From Heyndrickxia coagulans 36D1 (GTDB lineage: Bacteria > Bacillota > Bacilli > Bacillales > Bacillaceae_C), in the NCBI RefSeq assembly GCF_000169195.2, contig NC_016023.1, forward strand, positions 1,054,001 through 1,118,000: a stretch of DNA of 64,000 nucleotides. Direction: 5' to 3'. A program made the translations under genes and the position numbers. Positions 5,368 to 43,943 of this stretch are shown here, piece by piece (within the stretch, counting starts at the first letter, position 1; each line of letters begins with the position of its first letter). The notes under the pieces are model-generated. The model was not told the DNA's origin. It saw only the letters and a program-made list of their open reading frames with translations, and ran no database searches.

Positions 5368-5540
5368 AGTGAACTACCCTCCACTTATCAACCTTACGGT
5401 CTGATTGAAGTGGGGGCTTCTCGGGTAATCCCGTCTAATGACAGAAAATTGACCGAGCTAACCCTCTTGTTCCAAAAGTTTTGTTACTTATGATAACGCT
5501 AATAAGCGTATACCTTCATTTTTGATATTGATTGCTGAAT
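5368..5540 (-). ncRNA. Predicted omega RNA (reRNA) of TnpB
   Basis: In IS605-type loci the guide RNA is made from the 3' end of tnpB through the right end of the element. Here the minus strand after the stop shows GAAGCCCCCACTTCAATC pairing with AAGTGGAGGGTAGTTCAC at the very end. The guide would start directly outside the element with TACATCAAAAGAAAAGGC. The same scaffold recurs at 36.48 kb with a different flank. The 5' boundary is estimated. Confidence 0.6.
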
Positions 5541-6606
5541 TGTGATCGCGATCTAATACAAAGCCGCAAGAACATTTATATACACGTTCAGATAATGGCA
5601 TTTCTTTTTCCTTGCCGCAACATGAACACTTCTTAGTGGAGGGAAACCACTTATCAATTTTCACAAGTTGTTTCCCTTGTTCTTTTAGCTTATACGCTAA
5701 GAAAGTAGTGAACATACCCCAGCCGTTATCATGAACGCTTTTCCCAAAGTGAAGGGCTTGAGACATCCCTTTCATGTTCAAGTCCTCAATCACGACAGCA
5801 TCAAAGTTAGAAGCTAATTCTTTTGACTTATGATGAAGAAAATTCATGCGTTGGTTCGCCACTTTCTCATGTAACTTAGCCACTACTAGTCGTTGCTTGT
5901 TCCAACGTGCAGAACCTTTCTTTCTTCGAGAAAGAATTCGTTGTGCTTTTGCTAATTTATTTAAGGCTTGCCGATAGTAACGTGGGTAATTGGCTTTCTT
6001 ACCCTGTTCACTCTCGACATATAGACCATCCATAGCAAAATCCAAACCAACAACTTTCTGTATTTTAACTGGACGAATATCTTTCTCATATTCTGTCAAA
6101 ATTGAAATGTAGTACTTGCCTGTCTTTGTTTTAGAAATAGTGCAAGATTTGATTTTATAACCAGCAGGTATCTCTCTATGCTGTTTCATTTTTATTGGCT
6201 TTTTGATTTTTGGCAGTTTGATATGACCATTTTCTAGCTTAATATTTCCGTTGACCATATTAGTTGTATAGGATTGTTTTGCTTTACGATTTTTGAACTT
6301 TGGAAAATCCGCATTTCCTTCAAAGAAATTCTTATAAGCAGTCTGTAAGTTCATTTGTGCATTTGCCAAAGCTAAAGAATCCACTTCTTTTAGGAATGGA
6401 AATTCACTTTTATATTTTGCAGGAGTCGGAAACTTTTGCTTTTTAAGCAATTCTTTATCATCCTTGAACTTTTCATACGTTTCTTTGCGTTCAGCTAACA
6501 TCTTATTGTAGACAAAGCGAACACAACCAAATGTCTTAGCTAATAGTGCGGATTGTTCTTTGTTTGGTAACAAACGAAACTTGAAAGCTTTGTTTTGCTT
6601 GGCCAT
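5488..6606 (-). CDS. tnpB: TnpB RNA-guided nuclease of an IS605-type element
   Basis: A full-length 372-residue TnpB. The RuvC catalytic residues are all present: Asp189 in VVGLDFAMDG, Glu274 in VVIEDLNMKG and the Asp pair 352/354 in LDRDHNSAIN. Zinc-ribbon cysteines sit at 327-330 (CSCC) and 345-347 (CSC). TnpB uses an omega RNA to cut DNA next to a TAM, which preserves the element at its donor site after excision. The ATG has GAGGTG 7 nt upstream. A C-terminal fragment of a close relative lies at 36.6 kb. The divergent neighbour is a small RHH protein, not the usual tnpA. Appears active by sequence. Confidence 0.95.
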   Translation of the reverse strand: MAKQNKAFKFRLLPNKEQSALLAKTFGCVRFVYNKMLAERKETYEKFKDDKELLKKQKFPTPAKYKSEFPFLKEVDSLALANAQMNLQTAYKNFFEGNADFPKFKNRKAKQSYTTNMVNGNIKLENGHIKLPKIKKPIKMKQHREIPAGYKIKSCTISKTKTGKYYISILTEYEKDIRPVKIQKVVGLDFAMDGLYVESEQGKKANYPRYYRQALNKLAKAQRILSRRKKGSARWNKQRLVVAKLHEKVANQRMNFLHHKSKELASNFDAVVIEDLNMKGMSQALHFGKSVHDNGWGMFTTFLAYKLKEQGKQLVKIDKWFPSTKKCSCCGKEKEMPLSERVYKCSCGFVLDRDHNSAINIKNEGIRLLALS

Positions 6607-6643
6607 ATCAATTCACCTCACTTTGTGCGGAAAAATTTCGTAT

Positions 6644-6680
6644 ATATTGATTATATCGTAAAAATCCGTACAATCAATAT
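6644..6680. promoter_or_regulatory. Inverted repeat between tnpB and the RHH gene
   Basis: ATATTGATT (6644-6652) and AATCAATAT (6672-6680) form a perfect 9-bp inverted repeat in the 86-bp divergent promoter region. RHH proteins usually bind such sites, so the small protein could repress itself and tnpB. Confidence 0.5.
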
Positions 6681-6692
6681 GAGGTGATAATC

Positions 6693-6833
6693 ATGAGAGA
6701 AGAGAAAGAACGTGTAGAAATTCGTATGCCTAAGACGATATTAGAAAAATTGGAGCAATATCAAAAAGAAAATGGGATTCCAACTAGAACAGGCGCAATC
6801 TTAGAATTGTTGAGAAAAGGATTGGAAAAATAA
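6693..6833 (+). CDS. Small ribbon-helix-helix (Arc/CopG-like) protein in the IS605-type element
   Basis: A 46-residue protein missed by length cut-offs. It has an N-terminal strand (ERVEIRMPKTILEKLEQYQK) and two helices (the second ending AILELLRKGLEK), the layout of a CopG/Arc DNA-binding domain. GAGGTG lies 7 nt before the ATG. It is inside the element, divergent from tnpB and upstream of the left end, where tnpA would normally be. Likely a transcriptional regulator of tnpB; alternatively an antitoxin-like leftover. No toxin gene is next to it. Confidence 0.75.
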   Translation: MREEKERVEIRMPKTILEKLEQYQKENGIPTRTGAILELLRKGLEK

Positions 6834-6937
6834 CTTTGGCTAAAGCCAACCGAAATTCATCTCCCACCTACTCATTGGTGCGATTCGCACCTTCACATTC
6901 CTTGAGGATGGGAGACTTCTTTCGGAAAGCCGTTAAA
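6834..6937 (-). repeat. Left end of the IS605-type element (104 bp, second copy at 41808-41911)
   Basis: 104 bp that read identically at both places, including the hairpin arms and the TTTAA target motif on the minus strand. Flanking sequences differ directly outside. Confidence 0.85.
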
Positions 6938-7514
6938 AACATGTAAATATATAGCCAAATAAGTTGCTGGATAAAAGTTCGGGGTTATTGGCATATTGCG
7001 CACAGTTAAAACTGATAAAGAGGGAATGCGGGGGCAACACCTCATTTTCCACACAGCATTTGTAGATTAATTCCGCAGTGTAACTTTTGCCTACCCCGGT
7101 CGGCCCGCAAAGCATAATCGGCAAGCCGCCCGGATAAAAAATGGACGTTTTAATTTGTGTGATGGCTTTTTTTAAACTCCCTTCCGCACCGATTAATTCA
7201 TCAAATACATCATGCTTGTCATTTTTTGGCGGTTCATACTCCTTTAATTCCTGAAAACTATCCAGGATGCTTGCCGGAATGTTAAAAAATTTTTTCTCAA
7301 AAACGGACCGGCTTAAAAAATATACAGGCCTTGTATTGATTTTTATGACCAGGTTTTCCTTAACCAATTGATTCAGGTATGTGCTGACCGTATTGCGTTT
7401 GACATGGAATACTTTCTGCATGCCGTTCGCAGTTAACTGTTCTGAGGGATGTTCCCAATCAAATTTTTCAGTTTCTTTACTTAAGTAAACCAAGATGTCA
7501 TTTTTTAAAAACAT
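6938..7514 (-). pseudogene. LevR-like sigma-54-dependent PTS regulator, truncated by the IS605-type element
   Basis: About 190 codons survive of a protein that is normally 800-950 residues. Visible are an N-terminal winged-helix region (GMQKVFHVKRNTVSTYLNQL) and the start of an NtrC-type AAA+ domain: Walker A MLCGPTGVGKSYTAELIY and the stretch ELLSSNLFGY, which normally continues with a GAFTGA loop. The frame changes to IFTCF-stop where the element begins. AAA+ remainder, PRD and PTS domains are all missing and not found on the other side, so a deletion accompanied or preceded the insertion. LevR-family proteins activate sigma-54 promoters of sugar PTS operons; this one cannot. Confidence 0.85.
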
Positions 7515-7964
7515 TCCATGTTCACTCCCTTCGTATTCATTTCAAAAATTTTATCCTCATCATCACTCATATTATAGCAGAAGATGCGGAAACTTTTCGG
7601 CAAAATCCGATGAAAATATTTTTCATATTGGAATAATCAAAAAATTATGCAGAGCATTTGCCAAAATTCTTGGTTTTTCACCATTATTCTAGAAAAAATT
7701 TTCTTTCAGACTATGAAGAGTTTGGTTATGGCAAACGGAGAAATATAGAACAGTCAAATGGAGAAAATGCATCGGATGGTTGGGGTATGAAAAACAGCCG
7801 GCATAAGTTTTCAAGCGAAAAAAAGGAAAAAAGCAAAACACAAATGAAGCAGGGCTTGCTGAATGCATTCATCCAGCAAGCCGGGACATATATTAAACCC
7901 CCTTCTTAATGAAGCAGGGAGTAAGGAGTTTTCAACAATCGCTACTTTTTTGATTTGCACATTT
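7515..7964. other. Intergenic region with an extended -10 promoter and a TIR-like palindrome
   Basis: TGCTATAAT on the minus strand (TATAAT 7571-7576) could drive the truncated LevR-like gene. At about 7853-7880 GGGCTTGCTGAATG faces CATTCATCCAGCAAGCC, a palindrome whose arms match the MITE terminal repeat found elsewhere in the window. An open frame at 7658-7909 has no ribosome site and no recognisable domain. Confidence 0.5.
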
Positions 7965-8734: not shown

Positions 8735-8760
8735 AAAATCCGCATCTTTCCGCGGATTTT
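8735..8760 (-). terminator. Terminator of the mevalonate kinase operon
   Basis: AAAATCCGC / GCGGATTTT with an 8-base loop, followed on the minus strand by more T residues. The stem touches the mvaK2 stop codon. Confidence 0.8.
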
Positions 8761-9860
8761 CACTCCATAATGGACACACCTTTTTTAGAAATATGAAGCG
8801 CAAGCGGGGTAATGCCTGCCGCTTCCCATGCTGCTTTCAAGGCGGCAGCTTTCTCTTCCCCCGCTGCAAATGCAATGCCGCAGTCTCCGCCGCCCGAGCC
8901 CGATGATTTTCCGGCACCGAAACGGCCGGCAATGTCTGCAAGTTGCTTCAATGGCGCCGTTTCAATGGCGGTGTGGGCTGCTGCTTCGAGCTTCTGCAAA
9001 GCACGCCGGTTTTGCCGGATACTTTCAAATACGCCGGCCGCATCCTGCTGCATGAAACTTTCCGCCAGTTTATCCACTGCGGCGGTACTTTCTTGCAAAA
9101 ATGCCGTGTATGTTTCGGTTGCCGCCTCCCGCAATTTGCCGATACGCTCCACCATCGGCCCGGTTGCCACCGCTTTCCCGGTCCAGCCTGTGCAAAAAAT
9201 GAGGCCCGGGGGAAGTTCCAATTTGGAAATGGCCAAATGCGGCCATGTTTCTGCCAGCAATTCCGAAATCGTGCAGCCCGCTTCCAACCGGGAAAAAATC
9301 CAATCCGGCCTGAATGCGGCATATTTCAGCATGCCGCCGTACACGGAAGCAGCAAGATCCGCGCCGGACCCGTTGCCCTGTGTTTTCAGATGGGCCACGG
9401 CGGCCAGTTTAAAAATCGCTTCCTTCGTATCCGGCATCCCTTGATGGGCATGCAAAAGGGCGGCAAGGACGGCAGAAAGAATCGCTGCACTGGAACCGAG
9501 CCCGTATTTTTGCCCTGTTGCGGGATCATCCAATTCACTCGTTACCGTGATGTGAAGCGGGCGGAGCGGTATCGATTTTTCCATAAGCAGCCGGTAAAAA
9601 ACGGCGAGTGCATTTTGGATAAACCGGAGTTTCGAGTCATCGTGGTCAAAGCGGACTTCCCCGTTCTCCACACGCCACGCTGCATGCGGAATGCCAATCT
9701 GCGGCAAAGAAAAAAGATTCTCCGTGCTTTCTTTTACCTCTATTGTGATGTACCGGTCTACCGCGGCAACCACAGCAGGGCAACCGGGTTCAATGACCGC
9801 ATATTCGCCGGCAATCATCAATTTGCCCGGCGCCTTTACTTGAAATTGCATCCCGTTCAT
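8760..9860 (-). CDS. mvaK2: Phosphomevalonate kinase
   Basis: GHMP-family kinase of about 366 residues that phosphorylates 5-phosphomevalonate to the diphosphate, the second ATP step of the mevalonate route to isopentenyl diphosphate. Motifs: KAPGKLMIAGEYAV at the N-terminus, the ATP-binding YGLGSSAAILSAVLAAL, QGNGSGADLAASVYGG, and the C-terminal GAGKSSGSGGGDCGIAF. Start set at ATG 9860, which has AGGA 9 nt upstream; an upstream in-frame TTG at 9869 overlaps that site. Third gene of the mvaK1-mvaD-mvaK2 cluster, with a 358-bp gap to mvaD. No type II IPP isomerase (fni) follows, although it often does in Gram-positives. Confidence 0.93.
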   Translation of the reverse strand: MNGMQFQVKAPGKLMIAGEYAVIEPGCPAVVAAVDRYITIEVKESTENLFSLPQIGIPHAAWRVENGEVRFDHDDSKLRFIQNALAVFYRLLMEKSIPLRPLHITVTSELDDPATGQKYGLGSSAAILSAVLAALLHAHQGMPDTKEAIFKLAAVAHLKTQGNGSGADLAASVYGGMLKYAAFRPDWIFSRLEAGCTISELLAETWPHLAISKLELPPGLIFCTGWTGKAVATGPMVERIGKLREAATETYTAFLQESTAAVDKLAESFMQQDAAGVFESIRQNRRALQKLEAAAHTAIETAPLKQLADIAGRFGAGKSSGSGGGDCGIAFAAGEEKAAALKAAWEAAGITPLALHISKKGVSIME

Positions 9861-10218
9861 CTCTTTCAATCCTTTTTAGGTCGGTTTACCCGTCAAATTT
9901 GCAAACATCGCGTCCAATGCCCGCCTGCTACACCCGCTTTTGCGGACACATCCTCTGTCTAACTGGCGAACGGCAATCCGGGCGTTTCCCGCGTCAAAAG
10001 CAATCCCCAAGGTGTTTCCAAAAGCCGTGTGAAAAGGGTTACATTCGCACAGCCGCAACCCGGTTACGGGCATGGCGCCGCCAAATAGCGCGAAACAGGC
10101 CGAAATGGTTTTTCAGCCGCAGCTGCAGAAGGAAAGCGGCATTTTATAATCACGAAAGAATGCCCTAACATGGATGTTTTGGAGCTTCCCTGCCGGCGTT
10201 CCAAAGTCCCGGAAAAAA
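9861..10218. other. Gap inside the mevalonate operon; no gene found
   Basis: 358 bp between mvaD and mvaK2. Only short shadow frames occur; none has a ribosome site or recognisable domain. Unusually long for an operon spacer. Confidence 0.6.
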
Positions 10219-11199
10219 TTAAAACGGGCCGTATTGAATGCCCGGACCCGGATGGCAAACCAGCACCTCGCGGACGGACGGGACGGCTGCAAGCGCATTG
10301 TACACCGTCTCTTCATCTTTTCGTTCACACAGCACTTTTACATTCGGCCCGGCGTCAATTGTAAAATAAGCTTCAATCCCGCGTTCGCGCAAAAGCGCCA
10401 CTTCCTGCATAACATCGAGCGTCGCACTTTGCCAGTATAAAAAGGGCGGGTCGGCGCTGATCGTTGTCGCATGCATTTTTAACGCATTGGCTTCAAGCAC
10501 GCGCCCCAAAAGCGCAAAATCGCGCGCTGCAATCGCGGATTTTGCGGCGGCCAAATCTTTTTCCACGGTTTCCATCCAGGCTTTATAAAACGGCGACGTG
10601 GTGACCGTCCGTTTCATCCCTTCCCTGCTCGAAATTTTTTTCTGCTTTGATTCCACCAGGCAAGATAAAATGCTGAGATTCCAATCGTCTTCGCCAAGAA
10701 TCGGAACCGCGTACGAATCGGAACCATCCGCTTTTTCACCTTTTTGCCACTCAACAAAACCGCCGTAGATGCTGCGGCAGGCGGACCCGGAACCTTGGCG
10801 CGCCAAGATTGACAGCGTGCGCCCGTCCACCTCAATGCCGAGCGCTTTAACAGCCGCAGCTGCAAGCGCCGCCATACCGGATGCGGAAGAGGCAAGCCCG
10901 GCAGCGATCGGCACTTCGTTTTGCGATTCTATATATGCATATCTTTTTTCTCCCGCAAATGCCCTGATCTTATCCATAAAGCGGGAAATTTTCGCTGTTT
11001 CCGCATCAATGGCCGGTTTTCCGTTCAAAAAAAACACATCCGCTTTTAAAGCGGGATCATAAGCCACCTTTGTTGTCGTATAAAACCTGTCCAGCGTAAT
11101 GGACAGGCTGCTGTTCATCGGGAGAAAAAGCTTTTCGTCCCGTTTCCCCCAGTACTTGATCAGGGCAATATTCGTATGGGCCCTCGCTGTTGCCTCCAT
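10219..11199 (-). CDS. mvaD: Diphosphomevalonate decarboxylase
   Basis: 326-residue GHMP-family enzyme that converts mevalonate diphosphate plus ATP to isopentenyl diphosphate and CO2. Diagnostic features: the N-terminal ATARAHTNIALIKYWGKRD, MNSSLSITLD, the phosphate-binding AAGLASSASGMAALAAA, SGSACRSIYGGFVEW and the FTIDAGPNVKVLC region with the catalytic Asp. Length matches family norms. Second gene in the cluster; preceded by 401 bp that contain degenerate repeats rather than a tight operon junction. Confidence 0.95.
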   Translation of the reverse strand: MEATARAHTNIALIKYWGKRDEKLFLPMNSSLSITLDRFYTTTKVAYDPALKADVFFLNGKPAIDAETAKISRFMDKIRAFAGEKRYAYIESQNEVPIAAGLASSASGMAALAAAAVKALGIEVDGRTLSILARQGSGSACRSIYGGFVEWQKGEKADGSDSYAVPILGEDDWNLSILSCLVESKQKKISSREGMKRTVTTSPFYKAWMETVEKDLAAAKSAIAARDFALLGRVLEANALKMHATTISADPPFLYWQSATLDVMQEVALLRERGIEAYFTIDAGPNVKVLCERKDEETVYNALAAVPSVREVLVCHPGPGIQYGPF

Positions 11200-11600
11200 C
11201 TTTCATCGTTCCTTCCAGTCAAAATGCCTTCCTGAGAGAGCTGCTTTGAAAAGGGCACCGTTCTGCCAATTCTATTCCCGCTGCCGGACAAAAAAGCGCT
11301 TTGGCCAACTGCCTCCAAAGGAAAATGCCTCAAACATTTTATGGCAAGAGGCAACTGCCCGCGATTCCCCATTCTCAGCAGCCTTCGCACCGCTGCCGGA
11401 TAAAAGGGGCCCCTTTGCCAGCCGCTTTAACGGAAAATGCCTTCTCATGATCCGCCCGGCTTCAAAGGGCCACCTTCTTCCTTCCCATCACTGCCGGACA
11501 AAAAGAGCTGCCCGCTACAAGCAAAAACAGGCAGCCTCTTTCCATGAAGCATCTCCTGTTTACGGGGCTGTGCTATCATGTTTCTATTGCGGGATCACGG
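11200..11600. repeat. Three degenerate direct repeats between mvaK1 and mvaD
   Basis: Units of roughly 100-115 bp recur: AAAATGCCT(T/C) near 11220, 11322 and 11440, and GC(C)GCTGCCGGA(C/T)AAAA near 11278, 11392 and 11489. They are imperfect and carry no convincing ORF. The same operon spacer would be short in most bacteria. Confidence 0.6.
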
Positions 11601-12545
11601 TCATCCTTCCAGCGAAAATTGCCATACTTGCGCGGCGCCTGCTTTTTGCAGGGCTTGGGCCACTGCTGAAGCTTTTTTCCTGCTTTCGGCGAGCGAAATA
11701 ATGCAACCACCCCGGCCCGCGCCGGTCAGTTTGGCACCGAGTGCGCCGGCTGAGCGTGCTGCAGCGCACAATGCGTTAAGCCCTTCGTCGCTGACACCCA
11801 AAACGGAAAGTTGTGCATGTGCTTCATTAAATAATCGGCCGAGATGCAATCCGTCTTTTTCAATCAATGCCCTTCCCGCTTCGTGCACGATTTCGCCTAA
11901 ACGGTTGATAGCGGACTCCACCGTTTTCGGGTCAGAACCGCTTTTTTCGCGGATGCTCCCGACCGCCATTGCCGTATTATGCACGCGCCCGGAATCGGCG
12001 ACCACCAGATAAAACGGAAGCGAAAACGGAAGCGGCCGGGCCGCCTTCCCTTTTTCAAACCAGATCGGATCATTGCTGATGACCGCCATCATATCGATGC
12101 CACTCGGATTCCCGTGGGCAAAATTCTCAGCAATTTGGACAAACCGTTCGAGTTCCATTTTCGTTAATTGTTTTTCAAAAAAAGCATACAGCCCGCGGAC
12201 AATGGCAACGGCAACAGCGGCACTCGAGCCAAGCCCGCGCCCGATCGGAATGGTCGACTCCAGTTTAATCGCCAAATTTTCGGCCGGCTTTTTTAACGTA
12301 CGGAGGATTTCTTTGACACATGCTCTGATTCCGTGAAGCCTTTCCGGCGCTTTATCCAGTGCCCCTTTGTAAAACCGGCAGTCAATGGAGAGCGGGCCTT
12401 GTTTTTGGATAACTGCCGTTTCAATTTTCACATGATCAAATGGAAGCGCGATCGCCGGTTGCCCGTAAACGACAGCATGTTCCCCCGCTAAAATTAATTT
12501 TCCGTGTGCCGTCCCGGTTGCTGTATTGCCGGGAATTTTCATCAT
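11601..12545 (-). CDS. mvaK1: Mevalonate kinase
   Basis: 314-residue GHMP kinase that makes 5-phosphomevalonate. Motifs: GTAHGKLILAGEHAVVYGQP at the start, ATP-binding IGRGLGSSAAVAVAIVRG, NPSGIDMMAV, and KLTGAGRGGCIISL at the end. The start at ATG 12545 has AGGGG about 6 nt upstream; an open extension to 12605 lacks one. First gene of the cluster. Oddly, a perfectly spaced AAGGAG-ATG lies at 12618 but in another frame, opening a 60-codon ORF that overlaps the first 110 bp of this gene. Confidence 0.94.
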   Translation of the reverse strand: MMKIPGNTATGTAHGKLILAGEHAVVYGQPAIALPFDHVKIETAVIQKQGPLSIDCRFYKGALDKAPERLHGIRACVKEILRTLKKPAENLAIKLESTIPIGRGLGSSAAVAVAIVRGLYAFFEKQLTKMELERFVQIAENFAHGNPSGIDMMAVISNDPIWFEKGKAARPLPFSLPFYLVVADSGRVHNTAMAVGSIREKSGSDPKTVESAINRLGEIVHEAGRALIEKDGLHLGRLFNEAHAQLSVLGVSDEGLNALCAAARSAGALGAKLTGAGRGGCIISLAESRKKASAVAQALQKAGAAQVWQFSLEG

Positions 12546-13171
12546 GTTTACCCCTCGCTTTCCCTTGCCAGACCGATGCGCGGTTTTCGGGAAAATTTTT
12601 TTCAAAAAAGCCCTTCATTGTGCCGCTCCTTAAAAGGTGCCATACAGCAAAAAAGTCATCTATGTTATCCAGCGGTGAAGGAGTCGCTGGCAAACCTGTT
12701 TATCCTATTCAATCCAGTATCGCCACTTTTCGACAATGCCTATTTTATCGCAACAGGACGCGTGATGACAATGGTTTGGGCCTTGAGCATATATATGAAA
12801 ATATGGGCCGGATTCCCGAAAGTTCCAAAAGAAAACCGGCCGTTGGAAATCCAGCTGTAATCCGGTACTTATAAAACCGGTTCGTGCGAAATTCACTTAA
12901 GGGCTGTGTCCGTGCATCCGCCTTTTGCGACGGATGTGGAAAGATTGCTGTGCCCATTCCCGTTTCTACAGGTGATGAAACGAGAGAATCCATTTTTTAA
13001 ATCGGTGCCAAAAAATAACCGCTCATGGTTGTGAGGCTATCCACAAACAGAGCGATCACAGGATTTATTTCACGGTATCGTGATTCCCCGTCCATTCTAT
13101 CGAAAATTGATCTTATTTGCAATAAAAGCGCAACGATTTGAACATAATGGAAGTGATAAGGAGGATGTTTT
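12546..13171. other. Intergenic region upstream of mvaK1 and the glycosyltransferase
   Basis: Contains the hairpin CCAGCG/CGCTGG near 12668-12688 and an out-of-frame 60-codon ORF (12436-12618, minus) with an ideal AAGGAG site. A plus-strand open stretch near 12706-12860 ends in a hydrophobic segment and then PKENRPLEIQL-stop; it could be a gene fragment but has no recognisable family. Nothing else is supported. Confidence 0.45.
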
Positions 13172-14689: not shown

Positions 14690-15166
14690 TTTCCATATTT
14701 TGGTTTGTTTTATTTCGTGCCTGCCGGGAATAGGAGCAGTGCAAGGCCAATACATCTTAAAAGAAGGGACTGGTAAAGTTTTTGATGAAAGACTTGACAG
14801 CAACTTCATCTTCCGTATTTGGCACTGCATTTGTCCAGCGGGCAAGTGGGACAACCGTCCGGAACCGATATACTTTCGGTGAAGGTTCGTGTCCGCCTAC
14901 TATTTGAAGCCCCGGACTTATCTGAGGCCAGGTTTGGATAAGTCCGTACTGGACGTCATCTGAATATCAGATTTGGATGAGGCAAAAGGCGCAATCCGAT
15001 CGGGTTGCGCTTTTTGTCCGTGTGCTCGAATATCCCTCCTGGTATACTTTGGAAATTCTGGCATTGCTGCCTGCAGCACAATCGCTTTATTCCCCGCTCG
15101 GTTCATGTTAGCATGAAGATAGGAATACACGTGATAGAAGGAAAGCGATACGTTGAGGTGAAGAAG
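14690..15166 (+). promoter_or_regulatory. Structured leader of the GlmS-like gene
   Basis: Three hairpins follow each other: GGACTTATC/GATAAGTCC (14914-14945), ATCTGA-ATA-TCAGAT (about 14959-14973) and GGCGCAA/TTGCGC followed by TTTTT (14988-15016, a terminator). An extended -10 TGGTATACT lies near 15038-15046. The conserved core of the glmS ribozyme is not present. The terminator may close the glycosyltransferase transcript or act as an attenuator. Confidence 0.5.
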
Positions 15167-17002
15167 ATGAGTGGAATCGTTGGGTACATTGGCAGACATT
15201 CGGCACAGCCGGTTCTGCTCGATTGCCTGAAAAAACTGGATTACCGGGGCTATGATTCAGCAGGCATTGCCGTCTCCGATATGAAAACCATCGGCGTCCG
15301 CAAAGAAAAAGGGCGCGTCGAAGATCTGGAAGCTTCCCTCCAGCTCGAACCGATTCCCGCCGGATGCCTTGGGATCGGCCACACAAGGTGGGCATCACAC
15401 GGAATGCCGACCGTTGAAAATTCCCATCCGTTATGTGATGAAGAAGCACGTTTCTACGTTGTTCATAACGGAATTATTGAAAACTACCAGCAATTAAAAA
15501 AATTCCTTATCGCGCAGGGGCATCGTTTACAAACGGACACCGACACAGAAGTCATTCCATATCTTCTCGCGCATTATGATACCGGCAATTTTGAAGAAAC
15601 CGTGCGGATCGTCATTCCGCAATTAAAAGGTGCGTTTGCGCTTGCGATCATGGCAAAAGATCACCCGAACCAGATTATCGCCATTTCTTATGATAATCCG
15701 CTCATTATCGGCTTTGGCAGCGGGGAAGCGTATCTCTCCTCGGATATCCCGGCGCTGCTTTCGTATACAAAAGAAATTTATCCAATTAAAAACGGCGAAA
15801 TGGCCATTTTGACTCAGACCAATGTGGAAATTAAGACACTTTCCGGGGAAAAAATTTTGCCGGAAAAAACATCCGTGCGCTGGAACCAAGACGAACTCAA
15901 CCTGCAGGATTACGGTCACTACATGTTAAAAGAAATCATGGAGCAGCCGGAAGCAATCAAGCGCACGTTAAAAGACCGGCTGACAGAAAGCGGTGTCGTA
16001 ATACCCGAGGTGGACGATTTTTTCGCAAGGCGCAAGCTTACAGATCCGGAGAGAATCACCATTGTCGCAAGCGGCACCTCCCATCACGCCGGCATGATCG
16101 GCAAAAAGATTCTCGAAACCATGCTTGATATACCGGTTGAAGCCGCGATTGCATCTGAATTCAGATGTGAGCACGGGCGGTTGGACGAAAAAACGCTCGT
16201 CATTGCCATCAGCCAATCAGGAGAAACGGCGGATACCATTTCCGCCTTGAAAGAAGCGAAAAAGTCCGGGGCAGCGGTGATCGCGATCAGCAATTACCGA
16301 AAGAGCACGCTGGCGCGGAAATCGGATTGCGTAATTTATACGCATGCAGGGCCGGAACTGGCGGTTGCTGCAACAAAAGCCTATACAACCCAGATTACGG
16401 CGCTCGTCCTGCTTTCGATTGTCCTGGCAAAAAAACTGCACGGTTCCGGCGAAGGCCAAATCCCCGCCCTGCTCGATGCCCTTCATTCACTTGCTGATGA
16501 CGTGGAAAAATGCCTGGTGATGACACAGGATGCCATCGATCAGTTTGCACAGGTCACAAACGACCAGGAGCATCTATTCCTGATTGGCCGCGGGCTCGAT
16601 TATGTGCTGGCGCTTGAAGGGGCGCTTAAACTCCAGGAAGTCGCCTATCTCCATGCGGATGCCTACGCGGCGGGAGAAATGAAACACGGCACGATGGCTT
16701 TGATCACGCCGGGTGTTCCGGTCATTGCCCTTGCCACCCAGGAACATTTGCGCGACAAGGCCATAAACAATATTAAAGAAGTAAAGGCACGCGATGCATA
16801 TGTCGTCGGGATTACGACAACGGGAGATGACGAAGTGAGCGCCGTTGTGGACGAAGTGCTCTACATTCCGGAAGCACACCCGTTTCTCATGCCGGTCCTG
16901 GCCGCCATCCCGCTGCAGCTGCTTGCTTATTATGCCGGCATCGTACGCGGCTATGACGTTGACCGCCCGCGCAACCTGGCGAAGAGTTTAACCGTCGAGT
17001 AA
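15167..17002 (+). CDS. GlmS homologue (glucosamine-6-phosphate synthase family) with Ser in place of catalytic Cys
   Basis: 611 residues with the full GlmS architecture: N-terminal class II glutamine amidotransferase domain (GHTRWASHG, VVHNGIIENY, TDTDTEVI) and two SIS domains (ASGTSHHAG, ISQSGETADT, EGALKLQEVAYLHA, GEMKHG, C-terminal RPRNLAKSLTVE). GlmS makes glucosamine-6-phosphate from fructose-6-phosphate and glutamine. The universal start MCGIVGYIG reads MSGIVGYIG: codon 2 is AGT, not TGT, so the N-terminal nucleophile Cys is Ser. The isomerase half looks intact. GAGGTG 7 nt upstream fixes this start; the longer frame to 15005 is rejected. Prediction: no or weak glutaminase activity, perhaps ammonia-dependent; a paralogue rather than the housekeeping enzyme. 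Confidence 0.93.
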   Translation: MSGIVGYIGRHSAQPVLLDCLKKLDYRGYDSAGIAVSDMKTIGVRKEKGRVEDLEASLQLEPIPAGCLGIGHTRWASHGMPTVENSHPLCDEEARFYVVHNGIIENYQQLKKFLIAQGHRLQTDTDTEVIPYLLAHYDTGNFEETVRIVIPQLKGAFALAIMAKDHPNQIIAISYDNPLIIGFGSGEAYLSSDIPALLSYTKEIYPIKNGEMAILTQTNVEIKTLSGEKILPEKTSVRWNQDELNLQDYGHYMLKEIMEQPEAIKRTLKDRLTESGVVIPEVDDFFARRKLTDPERITIVASGTSHHAGMIGKKILETMLDIPVEAAIASEFRCEHGRLDEKTLVIAISQSGETADTISALKEAKKSGAAVIAISNYRKSTLARKSDCVIYTHAGPELAVAATKAYTTQITALVLLSIVLAKKLHGSGEGQIPALLDALHSLADDVEKCLVMTQDAIDQFAQVTNDQEHLFLIGRGLDYVLALEGALKLQEVAYLHADAYAAGEMKHGTMALITPGVPVIALATQEHLRDKAINNIKEVKARDAYVVGITTTGDDEVSAVVDEVLYIPEAHPFLMPVLAAIPLQLLAYYAGIVRGYDVDRPRNLAKSLTVE

Positions 17003-17044: not shown

Positions 17045-17079
17045 AAAAACCGCCCGGGAAAAGGATCCTGGCGGTTTTT
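17045..17079 (+). terminator. Terminator of the GlmS-like gene
   Basis: AAAAACCGCC / GGCGGTTTTT with a 15-base loop, ending in a T run. Confidence 0.85.
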
Positions 17080-21692: not shown

Positions 21693-22733
21693 TTACAACA
21701 CCGTAATCCGGTTTCTGCCCTGACCCTTCGACTTGTATAGCCCTTCGTCCACCCGCCTTACAATGGTTTCTGCTGTATCCCCCGGTGTATATGCAGTCAC
21801 ACCGAAACTTGCGGACAGCTTTCCCGCATGCCCAAATGAATGGCGGCTAATGCTTGCTTTCAAATATTCCGCCAGTTCCTCTGCCTGGGGCAATTCATCC
21901 TTTGTAATGATGATGAATTCTTCACCGCCCCAGCGTCCGATGTAATCATTCGCTGAAATCACCCGGGAGGAAAGACGGACAAATTCCTTCAGCACCTCAT
22001 CTCCTGTCTGGTGCCCGAACTGGTCATTCACCTGTTTAAAATAGTCGATATCGAAAAAAATCACGGAAAATGATGTGCCGGTTTTGTCCGCGTGTTTAAC
22101 CGCAGCATCCAGCCATGCCTGCACCTGGCGCCGGTTGGCAATCCCGGTCAACATGTCCGAATAAGCCTTTTTCTTTTCCTCTTCCAATTCTCTAAATACT
22201 TTTAAGAGATAATGAGAAATGCAAAAGATGGCGATATAGACGAGATTGGCAAAGTAAAAGATCAGCATGGATATTTTATAGTCAAAGGAAAAATGGCGGA
22301 ACTGCGGCATTCCGATCAGAAGCGTAGTCACGAACAAAGCGAGCGAATAAATGATCCCGTTCCGCTTTTTCAACGTGATAAAAATATAGAGAAACAGAAG
22401 CGGGCTCCAAATGATCGAAATTCCGATGGCTCCCTCTTTTCCCGGAACCATGTATTGAAAAACACAGTCCATCACGATGGCAAGATAATAAACCGTGAGG
22501 ATCACGAGATTCACATAGTCAAACAAGCGGAAATAACGCTTGAAAACCATGCAGATGAGAAACAGAACGTTCCAGGCAATCAGGATCCGCGTCGTGGCGA
22601 GATAAAATAAAGCTGTACGGGTGCCTGTGTGAGGGGCCAAATTGTAAATCGCAAGGGCAGCGATCAAAAGCGGGCTGATCCAAAGATAAAGGATTCTTTT
22701 AAAATCTTCCAATGTCTCGATTTTCCTGCCCAT
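21693..22733 (-). CDS. Membrane-bound diguanylate cyclase (GGDEF domain)
   Basis: About 346 residues. Six or so membrane helices fill residues 10-185; a short helical linker (LKVFRELEEEKKKAYSD) leads to a GGDEF domain with DMLTGIANRRQ, IFFDIDYFKQVND and the active-site variant GRWGGEEF. GGEEF is catalytically competent, so the protein should make cyclic di-GMP from two GTP. An RxxD inhibitory site is not evident. Start at ATG 22733; the longer frame begins with TTG and has no ribosome site. Confidence 0.9.
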   Translation of the reverse strand: MGRKIETLEDFKRILYLWISPLLIAALAIYNLAPHTGTRTALFYLATTRILIAWNVLFLICMVFKRYFRLFDYVNLVILTVYYLAIVMDCVFQYMVPGKEGAIGISIIWSPLLFLYIFITLKKRNGIIYSLALFVTTLLIGMPQFRHFSFDYKISMLIFYFANLVYIAIFCISHYLLKVFRELEEEKKKAYSDMLTGIANRRQVQAWLDAAVKHADKTGTSFSVIFFDIDYFKQVNDQFGHQTGDEVLKEFVRLSSRVISANDYIGRWGGEEFIIITKDELPQAEELAEYLKASISRHSFGHAGKLSASFGVTAYTPGDTAETIVRRVDEGLYKSKGQGRNRITVL

Positions 22734-22979
22734 TTCCGCCCCGCCTTTCTGATCAATCTCCGGGGAACTTGCAAATGAAAACAAAGGCCAAACTTCGGCT
22801 TTTCACTACGCGTTAGCAACTGGCTGGCATGGTTAGAAAACCGGTAGCCCCTGTAGTTTTGCGTCTCCATTTTTCAATGGATTTGCCCCTTTGATATAGG
22901 TCTTTTATCCTATTATACTGTATTTCTGTCCAAAAGAAACCATCAGTCAAAGGATAAGAAAGGGCAATTCGGTTAAAAT

Positions 22980-31747: not shown

Positions 31748-31905
31748 CAAAAATCTTCTTACCCTGAAGTAAGAAGATATCCATTCCCGGGAAATCTTCT
31801 TATCTTTCAGGCCACCACCTGCAGGAATTGGCACAGTACCCGTTTTCGGACCTGCTGCCGAGGCTTCACAGGGCCCTTCCCTCCACCTCTCTTGATAAGA
31901 AAATA
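31748..31905 (-). promoter_or_regulatory. SAM-I (S-box) riboswitch with terminator, controlling cysH
   Basis: Minus strand shows the S-box order: P1 arm CTTATCAAGAGAGG, GTGGAGGGA, a GAAGCC(T)CGGCA block, GGTACTGTGCCAATTCC-like P3/P4 region and the closing GATAAG. A terminator follows: ATCTTCTTAC-TTCAGG-GTAAGAAGAT then TTTTT (31748-31778). The run AAGAAGAT at the P1 3' side can pair instead with the terminator arm. High SAM should stop transcription of cysH. Confidence 0.93.
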
Positions 31906-42064: not shown

Positions 42065-43943
42065 TTTTCAATTCCTCATAGGTAAAATACTAACTTCGGC
42101 GGCGGCAATTTGTGCCTCCCTCTTTGTCTGTTTCAATTCCTCATAGGTAAAATACTAACGGTATTTTCCAACGTGTTTACTGACTGGAATACTGCGTTTC
42201 AATTCCTCATAGGTAAAATACTAACATCCACAGCTAACCAGGATTTGGTTTAGCAAAGCGATGTTTCAATTCCTCATAGGTAAAATACTAACTTCGGTTT
42301 ATATCGTATCAACTCTAGTTTTACAGTCGCGTTTCAATTCCTCATAGGTAAAATACTAACAAAAATATCGCGTCCAGCTAGTAGACTCAAACGAAGTTTC
42401 AATTCCTCATAGGTAAAATACTAACACGGCAAAAACAACGCCTTACTATGTCACAGCGAGGTTTCAATTCCTCATAGGTAAAATACTAACATACTCGAGG
42501 AAAGGCCTAGCAATTTATACGCGGTGTTTCAATTCCTCATAGGTAAAATACTAACGTGCAGGCGGATATGCCTTACTCCAGCTTTTTTAAGTTTCAATTC
42601 CTCATAGGTAAAATACTAACTTGCTTTTTGATTATCTCCAGTTTTTGCATTTTCGGTTTCAATTCCTCATAGGTAAAATACTAACGGGCGCCTTACAAAA
42701 TAGCATGAAAGGCGTAGGGGAGTTTCAATTCCTCATAGGTAAAATACTAACCGGCGAGATCGGCGTGATTGTCGATAATATATCGGAGTTTCAATTCCTC
42801 ATAGGTAAAATACTAACGCCCAGCAGCGCACGAAAGCGCTCGGCCTGCTTCAGTTTCAATTCCTCATAGGTAAAATACTAACTTAGCTTTGGGTCTCTCA
42901 ACAACGCAATTAAAAATGTTTCAATTCCTCATAGGTAAAATACTAACAACGAGCAATTAGCATTGGATCTTTTTTAGAAGCCTTGTTTCAATTCCTCATA
43001 GGTAAAATACTAACGCACGCCACGGAAAAACAGGCCATGGCGGAAATGCGTTTCAATTCCTCATAGGTAAAATACTAACATACTCGAGGAAAGGCCTAGC
43101 AATTTATACGCGGTGTTTCAATTCCTCATAGGTAAAATACTAACGGTACAGCACAAAAAAATTAATAACTGGTCATTTTTGTTTCAATTCCTCATAGGTA
43201 AAATACTAACACAAATGCAGTTTGACTGGTACGTGGCTACCACTCCTGTTTCAATTCCTCATAGGTAAAATACTAACTTTATACCGTTTTACAACTAAAT
43301 GTACAGTATCTGGGGTTTCAATTCCTCATAGGTAAAATACTAACGGCGAGGAGGCAAAGGATCTGATCGCGGCCGGATATGTTTCAATTCCTCATAGGTA
43401 AAATACTAACGCAAACGGTAATTTGCCCATACTGTGGCAAAAAAAGGTTTCAATTCCTCATAGGTAAAATACTAACGGTGCACATTTTTGATTTGGTATA
43501 AAAAGCTATAGGTAGTTTCAATTCCTCATAGGTAAAATACTAACCTAAAACGATATTTCACGGAAGTCGACGAGGACAAGCGGTTTCAATTCCTCATAGG
43601 TAAAATACTAACCGCCAGATTGCGCCACGCCAATACATCGCTGTAGCAGGTTTCAATTCCTCATAGGTAAAATACTAACTTAGCACCTACCCGTTTTAAA
43701 ACCCAGTTTACACCCTGTTTCAATTCCTCATAGGTAAAATACTAACTAATACCGGACAGAGCTTTCTGAACGCCTGTCCATGGTTTCAATTCCTCATAGG
43801 TAAAATACTAACCTAAATGTTCCTTGCAACGGTGCATGGGTAAAAATGTTTCAATTCCTCATAGGTAAAATACTAACTAGGCAAGTGAAGACAGACCAAT
43901 GGGTTATGCCAAAGTTTCAATTCCTCATAGGTAAAATACTAAC
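42065..43943 (-). CRISPR. CRISPR array, 29 repeats of 30 bp, 28 spacers of 35-38 bp
   Basis: The repeat starts GTTTCAATTCCTCATAGG and ends TAAAATACTAAC. The reverse complement ends ATTGAAAC, the usual crRNA 5' tag of type I-B (also some type III) systems, so transcription is on the minus strand. The lowest-coordinate repeat has a T in place of the first G, as expected for the leader-distal end. The spacer at 42491-42525 recurs exactly at 43080-43114. No cas gene lies within this window. The ORF at 42621-42869 is only a shadow of the repeats. Confidence 0.97.

Follow-up and report, generated by a model that had tools for sequence, protein, structure and literature searches.

A GlmS variant with serine in place of the N-terminal cysteine is conserved in several groups of spore formers

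We find that a GlmS homolog of Heyndrickxia coagulans 36D1 with serine in place of the N-terminal cysteine, here called Ser-GlmS, is a real and conserved, apparently undescribed variant of GlmS that occurs in several groups of spore formers. An N-terminal Cys is the defining feature of class II amidotransferases. The reading we favor, tentatively, is that Ser-GlmS would be a GlcN6P synthase in which the serine acts as the nucleophile and hydrolyzes glutamine. It is also a serious possibility, if a doubtful one, that it represents the first natural class II amidotransferase family to hydrolyze glutamine by an N-terminal Ser, inherited stably in several Bacilli genera beside the normal Cys enzyme.

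The gene lies in the window, the whole stretch of 64,000 nucleotides that was analyzed (1054001-1118000 of a single 3.55 Mb contig; nearest relatives, Heyndrickxia/Weizmannia coagulans and neighbors). The protein begins MSGIVGYIG, with ATG at 15167-15169, AGT at 15170-15172, and the stop codon at 17000-17002. Its features are as follows (window coordinates, with E. coli GlmS equivalents where given).

14981..15018 (+): terminator-like hairpin between the glycosyltransferase and Ser-GlmS genes (-26.8 kcal/mol, z -6.3)
15155..15161 (+): GAGGTGA, Shine-Dalgarno-like, present in most orthologs
15167..17002 (+): Ser-GlmS gene, 611 aa (open frame, NCBIfam and Pfam matches, AlphaFold model)
about aa 1-245: glutaminase (Ntn) domain of Ser-GlmS
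about aa 249-611: isomerase domain of Ser-GlmS (two SIS)
15170..15172 (+): codon 2, AGT, Ser at the nucleophile position (E. coli Cys1)
15245..15247 (+): Arg27 (E. coli R26), R-loop, in 33/33 clade members
15386..15400 (+): RWASH, glutamine loop, with Arg74, Trp75 (channel gate W74), Ser77 (T76), and His78 (H77)
15467..15472 (+): Asn101-Gly102 (E. coli N98-G99), oxyanion hole, 33/33
15542..15544 (+): Asp126 (E. coli D123), glutamine binding, 33/33
16616..16639 (+): EGALKLQE, synthase site, with Glu484, Lys488, Gln490 (K487, changed clade-wide), and Glu491
16685..16687 (+): His507 (E. coli H504), 33/33
16979..16993 (+): C-tail AKSLT, with Ala605, Lys606, and Thr609 kept and Leu608 at the position that is V605 in all Cys enzymes
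17045..17079 (+): terminator-like hairpin after Ser-GlmS

Family models identify the protein as a full-length GlmS. TIGR01135 (glmS) matched residues 3-611 at 723 bits against a cutoff of 418, NF001484 (NCBIfam) matched the full length at 736 bits against 381, and Pfam reported two SIS stretches together with glutamine amidotransferase domains. Models of SIS-type GlcN6P deaminases stayed below cutoff (NagB-II, 152 vs. 430 bits; GlmD, 86 vs. 580), and Ser-GlmS, unlike these isomerase-only enzymes, has the glutaminase half. The AlphaFold model (mean pLDDT 89, pTM 0.85; C-tail 607-611 of low confidence) found its best PDB matches in E. coli GlmS (2j6h, TM-score 0.88; 1jxa, 0.92). The frame upstream of 15167 is readable to a TTG at 15005. 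This extra stretch is not conserved, and the open frames of several orthologs, at 611-613 aa, are too short to allow an N-terminal extension, so we take Met-Ser as the true start. At one locus, L133, GTG TGT GG stands in frame before Ser-GlmS and is readable as VCGMSGIVGYIG; the ribosome-binding site there fits the Met-Ser start.

Alignment to related GlmS proteins bore out the first-pass annotation, which had reported Ser at codon 2 of a GlmS homolog. We found 33 distinct relatives with an identity of 59% or more, and each has Ser at position 2 (AGT in 27, AGC in 6), never Ala, Gly, Thr, or Cys, across at least five named genera and behind start codons of ATG, GTG, or TTG; the four other genomes of the genus, which are separate assemblies at 76-93% identity, all have AGT. 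The next proteins outside the clade, at 53% identity or less, all carry Cys (TGT/TGC), as do 46 of the 47 sequences of the comparison set at position 1. Within the Ser clade, roughly one column in three is invariant, so the strict Ser alone is not striking. Ser-GlmS occurs in 5/5 genomes of the genus, 11/34 of the family, and 18/399 genomes drawn from the class (at least 59% identity); further carriers are Fictibacillus gelatini, two Pullulanibacillus, three Aneurinibacillus, Ammoniphilus resinae, and one Paenibacillaceae MAG.

In an IQ-TREE mixture-model tree built with the position-2 (trait) column removed, a branch with SH-aLRT 100 separates the 33 Ser sequences from the rest. The stem of the clade is long (0.99 changes per column), and its neighbor is the Paenibacillus-type Cys-GlmS. 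The Cys-to-Ser change of the Ser clade has a single origin and has been kept ever since. The earlier proposal of an undamaged frame under selection also stood: selection is purifying, as dN/dS between near relatives is about 0.03-0.07 for the glutaminase half, and the isomerase half gives 0.02-0.12. The glutaminase domain of the clade is no less constrained than the isomerase and is not decaying.

A search of the same genome for a second glmS with Cys and a ribozyme found one at 1196458-1198257 (-), with the start MCGIVGYIG and 44% identity to Ser-GlmS. The genome's only glmS ribozyme (1198357-1198523) lies upstream of this Cys-GlmS, and near Ser-GlmS we found no RNA family and no glmS ribozyme; Ser-GlmS is therefore a paralog outside ribozyme control. 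We searched 19 Ser-GlmS carriers, and in 18 of them a complete Cys-GlmS and a ribozyme are present. The 19th, the H. acidiproducens draft, was considered as a carrier without Cys-GlmS and rejected as such, given a canonical GlmS fragment (aa 454-600, 88% identical, N-terminus not seen) that reads as an assembly gap.

Ser-GlmS is probably transcribed as a single gene, flanked by the two hairpins listed above. The upstream glycosyltransferase adjoins it only in the coagulans group and the downstream CDF transporter in 5/5 genomes of the genus and not elsewhere; across the wider Ser clade we found no common neighbor. An operon with the glycosyltransferase was rejected on the intervening terminator and the lack of shared neighbors. 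Elsewhere in the window are a TnpB/OrfB IS605-type gene with a Cas12f1-like TNB domain (5488-6606, -); three GHMP-kinase-type genes (8760-12605, -) that by order and Pfam are mevalonate kinase, diphosphomevalonate decarboxylase, and phosphomevalonate kinase, and thus belong to the mevalonate pathway, here in a Bacillus relative; a c-di-GMP-I riboswitch (22812-22897, -) immediately upstream of the gene for a GGDEF-type diguanylate cyclase (21693-22784, -), a possible product feedback; a SAM riboswitch (31797-31901, -); and a CRISPR array of 28 repeats with an Rfam CRISPR-DR2 match (42130-43943, +).

We then compared the active sites, using E. coli numbering from here on. In the glutaminase half, R26, G27, R73, W74, H86, N98, G99, and D123 are kept in 33/33 clade members and H77 in 32/33; T76 is Ser or Thr across the clade (Ser in the window protein), and the C-loop Thr is retained. 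What the Cys, the R-loop Arg, the oxyanion residues, and the C-loop Thr do in human GFAT-1 and E. coli GlmS is set out in PMC7000685, where human T679, the counterpart of the C-loop Thr, participates in glutamine hydrolysis; the roles of the gate Trp and the C-tail are given in PMC7948480. In the isomerase half, E481, K485, E488, H504, A602, and K603 are kept in 33/33; of the core phosphate-binding and catalytic residues, S347, Q348, and S349 are kept as well. The first-pass annotation had considered the isomerase motifs kept, and EGALKLQE, KHG, and the C-terminal Lys are indeed present, but EGALKLQE is not the normal motif: K487 is Gln in 33/33, whereas all 46 Cys enzymes of the first comparison set have Lys there.

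Besides K487Q, the changes fixed in the clade are H88L/I, I397L/M/F, and V605L/M; S120T, S176N, and E495D are nearly diagnostic. C300 has become S, T, or N, S401 is Ala in 18/33, and A400 is Pro in 9/33. We took the channel-lining status of changed residues from residue numbers and papers rather than from geometry. Departures from columns near-invariant in Cys-GlmS amount to 8.1% in the glutaminase half vs. 11.5% in the isomerase half, which speaks against a selective decay of the glutaminase. Clade-specific changes do not cluster near the glutamine pocket (3/5, not above the share among conserved columns; Fisher p = 1).

The retention of the glutamine-holding residues, the gate, and the hydrolysis-linked C-loop Thr suggests that Ser-GlmS probably still binds glutamine or a close analog, and by analogy the simplest use of a bound glutamine beside a free N-terminal Ser would be hydrolysis by that Ser. 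Removal of Met1 would expose the serine as in Ser-type Ntn hydrolases, and glutamine would dock as in GlmS. The serine would then hydrolyze it, perhaps slowly or under conditions other than those of the Cys enzyme, and the ammonia would pass to the sugar phosphate through a retuned channel (V605L; residue 300 C to S/T/N). The cell would thereby gain a GlcN6P synthase free of ribozyme feedback and, more speculatively, one that may be less sensitive to thiol oxidation or Cys-directed inhibitors. Class II amidotransferases with an engineered replacement of Cys1 generally lose glutamine-dependent activity, and a new nucleophile leaves K487Q, V605L, and the substitutions at positions 300 and 401 unexplained, which counts against a catalytic serine. 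Serine nucleophiles are established in the Ntn superfamily, as in penicillin G acylase, and for the class II amidotransferase subfamily the same source gives Cys alone (PMC9140057). Among the open-licence papers searched, none described a Ser nucleophile for a class II amidotransferase, and none reported a paralog like Ser-GlmS.

A somewhat unlikely alternative is that the serine is noncatalytic and that Ser-GlmS is an ammonia-dependent GlcN6P synthase (or a reverse deaminase), its glutaminase half serving as a scaffold or as a sensor of glutamine through which the site is closed and the channel opened. Sequence alone does not separate this from hydrolysis by Ser, and a conserved pocket could bind glutamine without hydrolyzing it. 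The absence of the Cys nucleophile beside an intact set of isomerase catalytic residues fits ammonia use, as do clade-wide changes in the channel and sugar site (V605L, C300 to S/T/N, I397L, K487Q). However, in the window's clade neither W74 nor the residues that contact glutamine show drift, and the intact pocket leans toward a serine nucleophile. E. coli GlmS is reportedly poor at using free ammonia, and further change would thus be required of an enzyme that runs on it. With nagB present in 15/19 carriers, there is no general need for a deaminase role, and on the same count we rejected Ser-GlmS as a NagB replacement.

Ammonia use draws further support from a second, unrelated Ser lineage. 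A pattern scan of 398 Bacillota genomes found it in family f86, with five carriers among the 20 f86 genomes scanned (G700, G744, G630, G821, G826; loci L163, L164, L180-L184); among the other matches of the phylum scan, L166-L169 proved to be membrane-protein fragments and L165 an unrelated protein. The f86 Ser proteins share 66-68% identity with the Cys-GlmS of their own family and 41-44% with the window protein. A FastTree analysis gives each Ser group a branch to itself, supported at 100, and this requires separate origins of the Cys-to-Ser change. Their Ser codon is AGC or AGT, and they keep the isomerase residues, with A602T. R26H is found in 5/5 and T72I with W74L in 4/5, a pattern that fits a lost glutaminase; L184 still has T72 and W74, which suggests a stepwise loss after the nucleophile change. 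Departures from near-invariant Cys-GlmS columns are 13.3% in the glutaminase half vs. 4.7% in the isomerase half, the reverse of the pattern in the window's clade. The fixed departures (4/45 vs. 2/64; Fisher p = 0.23) are few and not significant, so the case for decay rests on which residues were lost and not on their count. On those residues, the f86 glutaminase half is apparently decaying. In three f86 genomes, all incomplete MAGs (92-97% complete), the Ser copy is the sole GlmS found, which suggests that enzymes of this kind can still supply GlcN6P; in two further f86 genomes, no GlmS was found at all.

It is improbable, to a greater degree, that Ser-GlmS is a GlmS-type enzyme for a different sugar phosphate or product, running beside the normal GlmS and not a spare for it. 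Near the sugar phosphate, C300 to S/T/N, S401A, A400P, and K487Q all point that way, as do the somewhat commoner departures in the isomerase half, and since positions 300, 400, 401, and 487 differ, a changed substrate retains a small probability. Against it, S347, Q348, S349, E481, K485, E488, H504, and K603 are kept, and no sugar-biosynthesis neighbor is common to the clade. The first-pass annotation had suggested a different amino sugar made for the upstream glycosyltransferase. That link is not supported, given the terminator, the coagulans-only adjacency, and the lack of a neighbor shared across the wider clade; for another sugar as such, only the few changed residues speak.

Very unlikely is a regulatory role in which Ser-GlmS, as a pseudo-enzyme, would bind both glutamine and sugar phosphate and thereby modulate Cys-GlmS, for instance in mixed oligomers. 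The carriers tested do hold a Cys enzyme to be modulated (18/19 full, the 19th a fragment), but Ser-GlmS keeps every isomerase catalytic residue and is merely 44% identical to Cys-GlmS, and the second Ser lineage can be a genome's only GlmS. We regard a sequencing error, a wrong start, or a decaying pseudogene as ruled out for practical purposes: isolated cases do occur, as in a lone Bacilli MAG GlmS with Ser (L092) vs. its close relative with Cys (L093), but the 33 independent, conserved sequences with two Ser codons, low dN/dS, a conserved ribosome-binding site, and no stops argue against any such artifact. The L092 gene itself (6001-7800) starts ATGAGT and L093 starts ATGTGT, an isolated change or a sequencing error.

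The Ser clade has preserved nearly everything around the nucleophile position while several genera diverged, and f86 underwent the same swap and then apparently lost its glutaminase. Together they provide a natural test of whether amidotransferase chemistry is possible with Ser and of the way in which such an enzyme comes to use free ammonia. Should Ser prove functional, activity-based annotation by "Cys2 present" would be in error; should it not, the swap would be a defined route to ammonia-dependent amino-sugar synthesis. The current annotation rule, TIGR01135, hides the Ser/Cys difference.

Among known systems, Ser-GlmS resembles the isomerizing GlmS of E. coli (TIGR01135): it is full-length, has both domains and the same fold, and shares the isomerase catalytic residues, those of the glutamine pocket, and the W74 gate. 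It differs in Ser for Cys1, in the clade-wide K487Q, V605L, H88L, and I397L, and in lacking a ribozyme at the Ser copy, and it is 39-44% identical to E. coli GlmS and to the canonical GlmS of its own genome. The closest proteins outside the clade, the Paenibacillus-type Cys-GlmS (49-53% identity), unlike Ser-GlmS all have Cys1, K487 (rarely R), and V605. The f86 proteins share the Cys1-to-Ser change and the kept isomerase residues with the window protein; unlike it, they keep K487 and V605 and carry R26H in all, T72I/W74L in four of five, and A602T. Ser-type Ntn hydrolases of the penicillin G acylase subfamily share an N-terminal Ser in an Ntn fold (PMC9140057), but they have no sequence relation to Ser-GlmS and are acylases activated by self-cleavage, not glutamine amidotransferases. 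Finally, E. coli GlmS C1A (3ooj) is, by its entry title, a nucleophile-less GlmS that folds and binds glucose-6-phosphate and glutamate; unlike Ser-GlmS, it is an engineered mutant and carries Ala rather than Ser.
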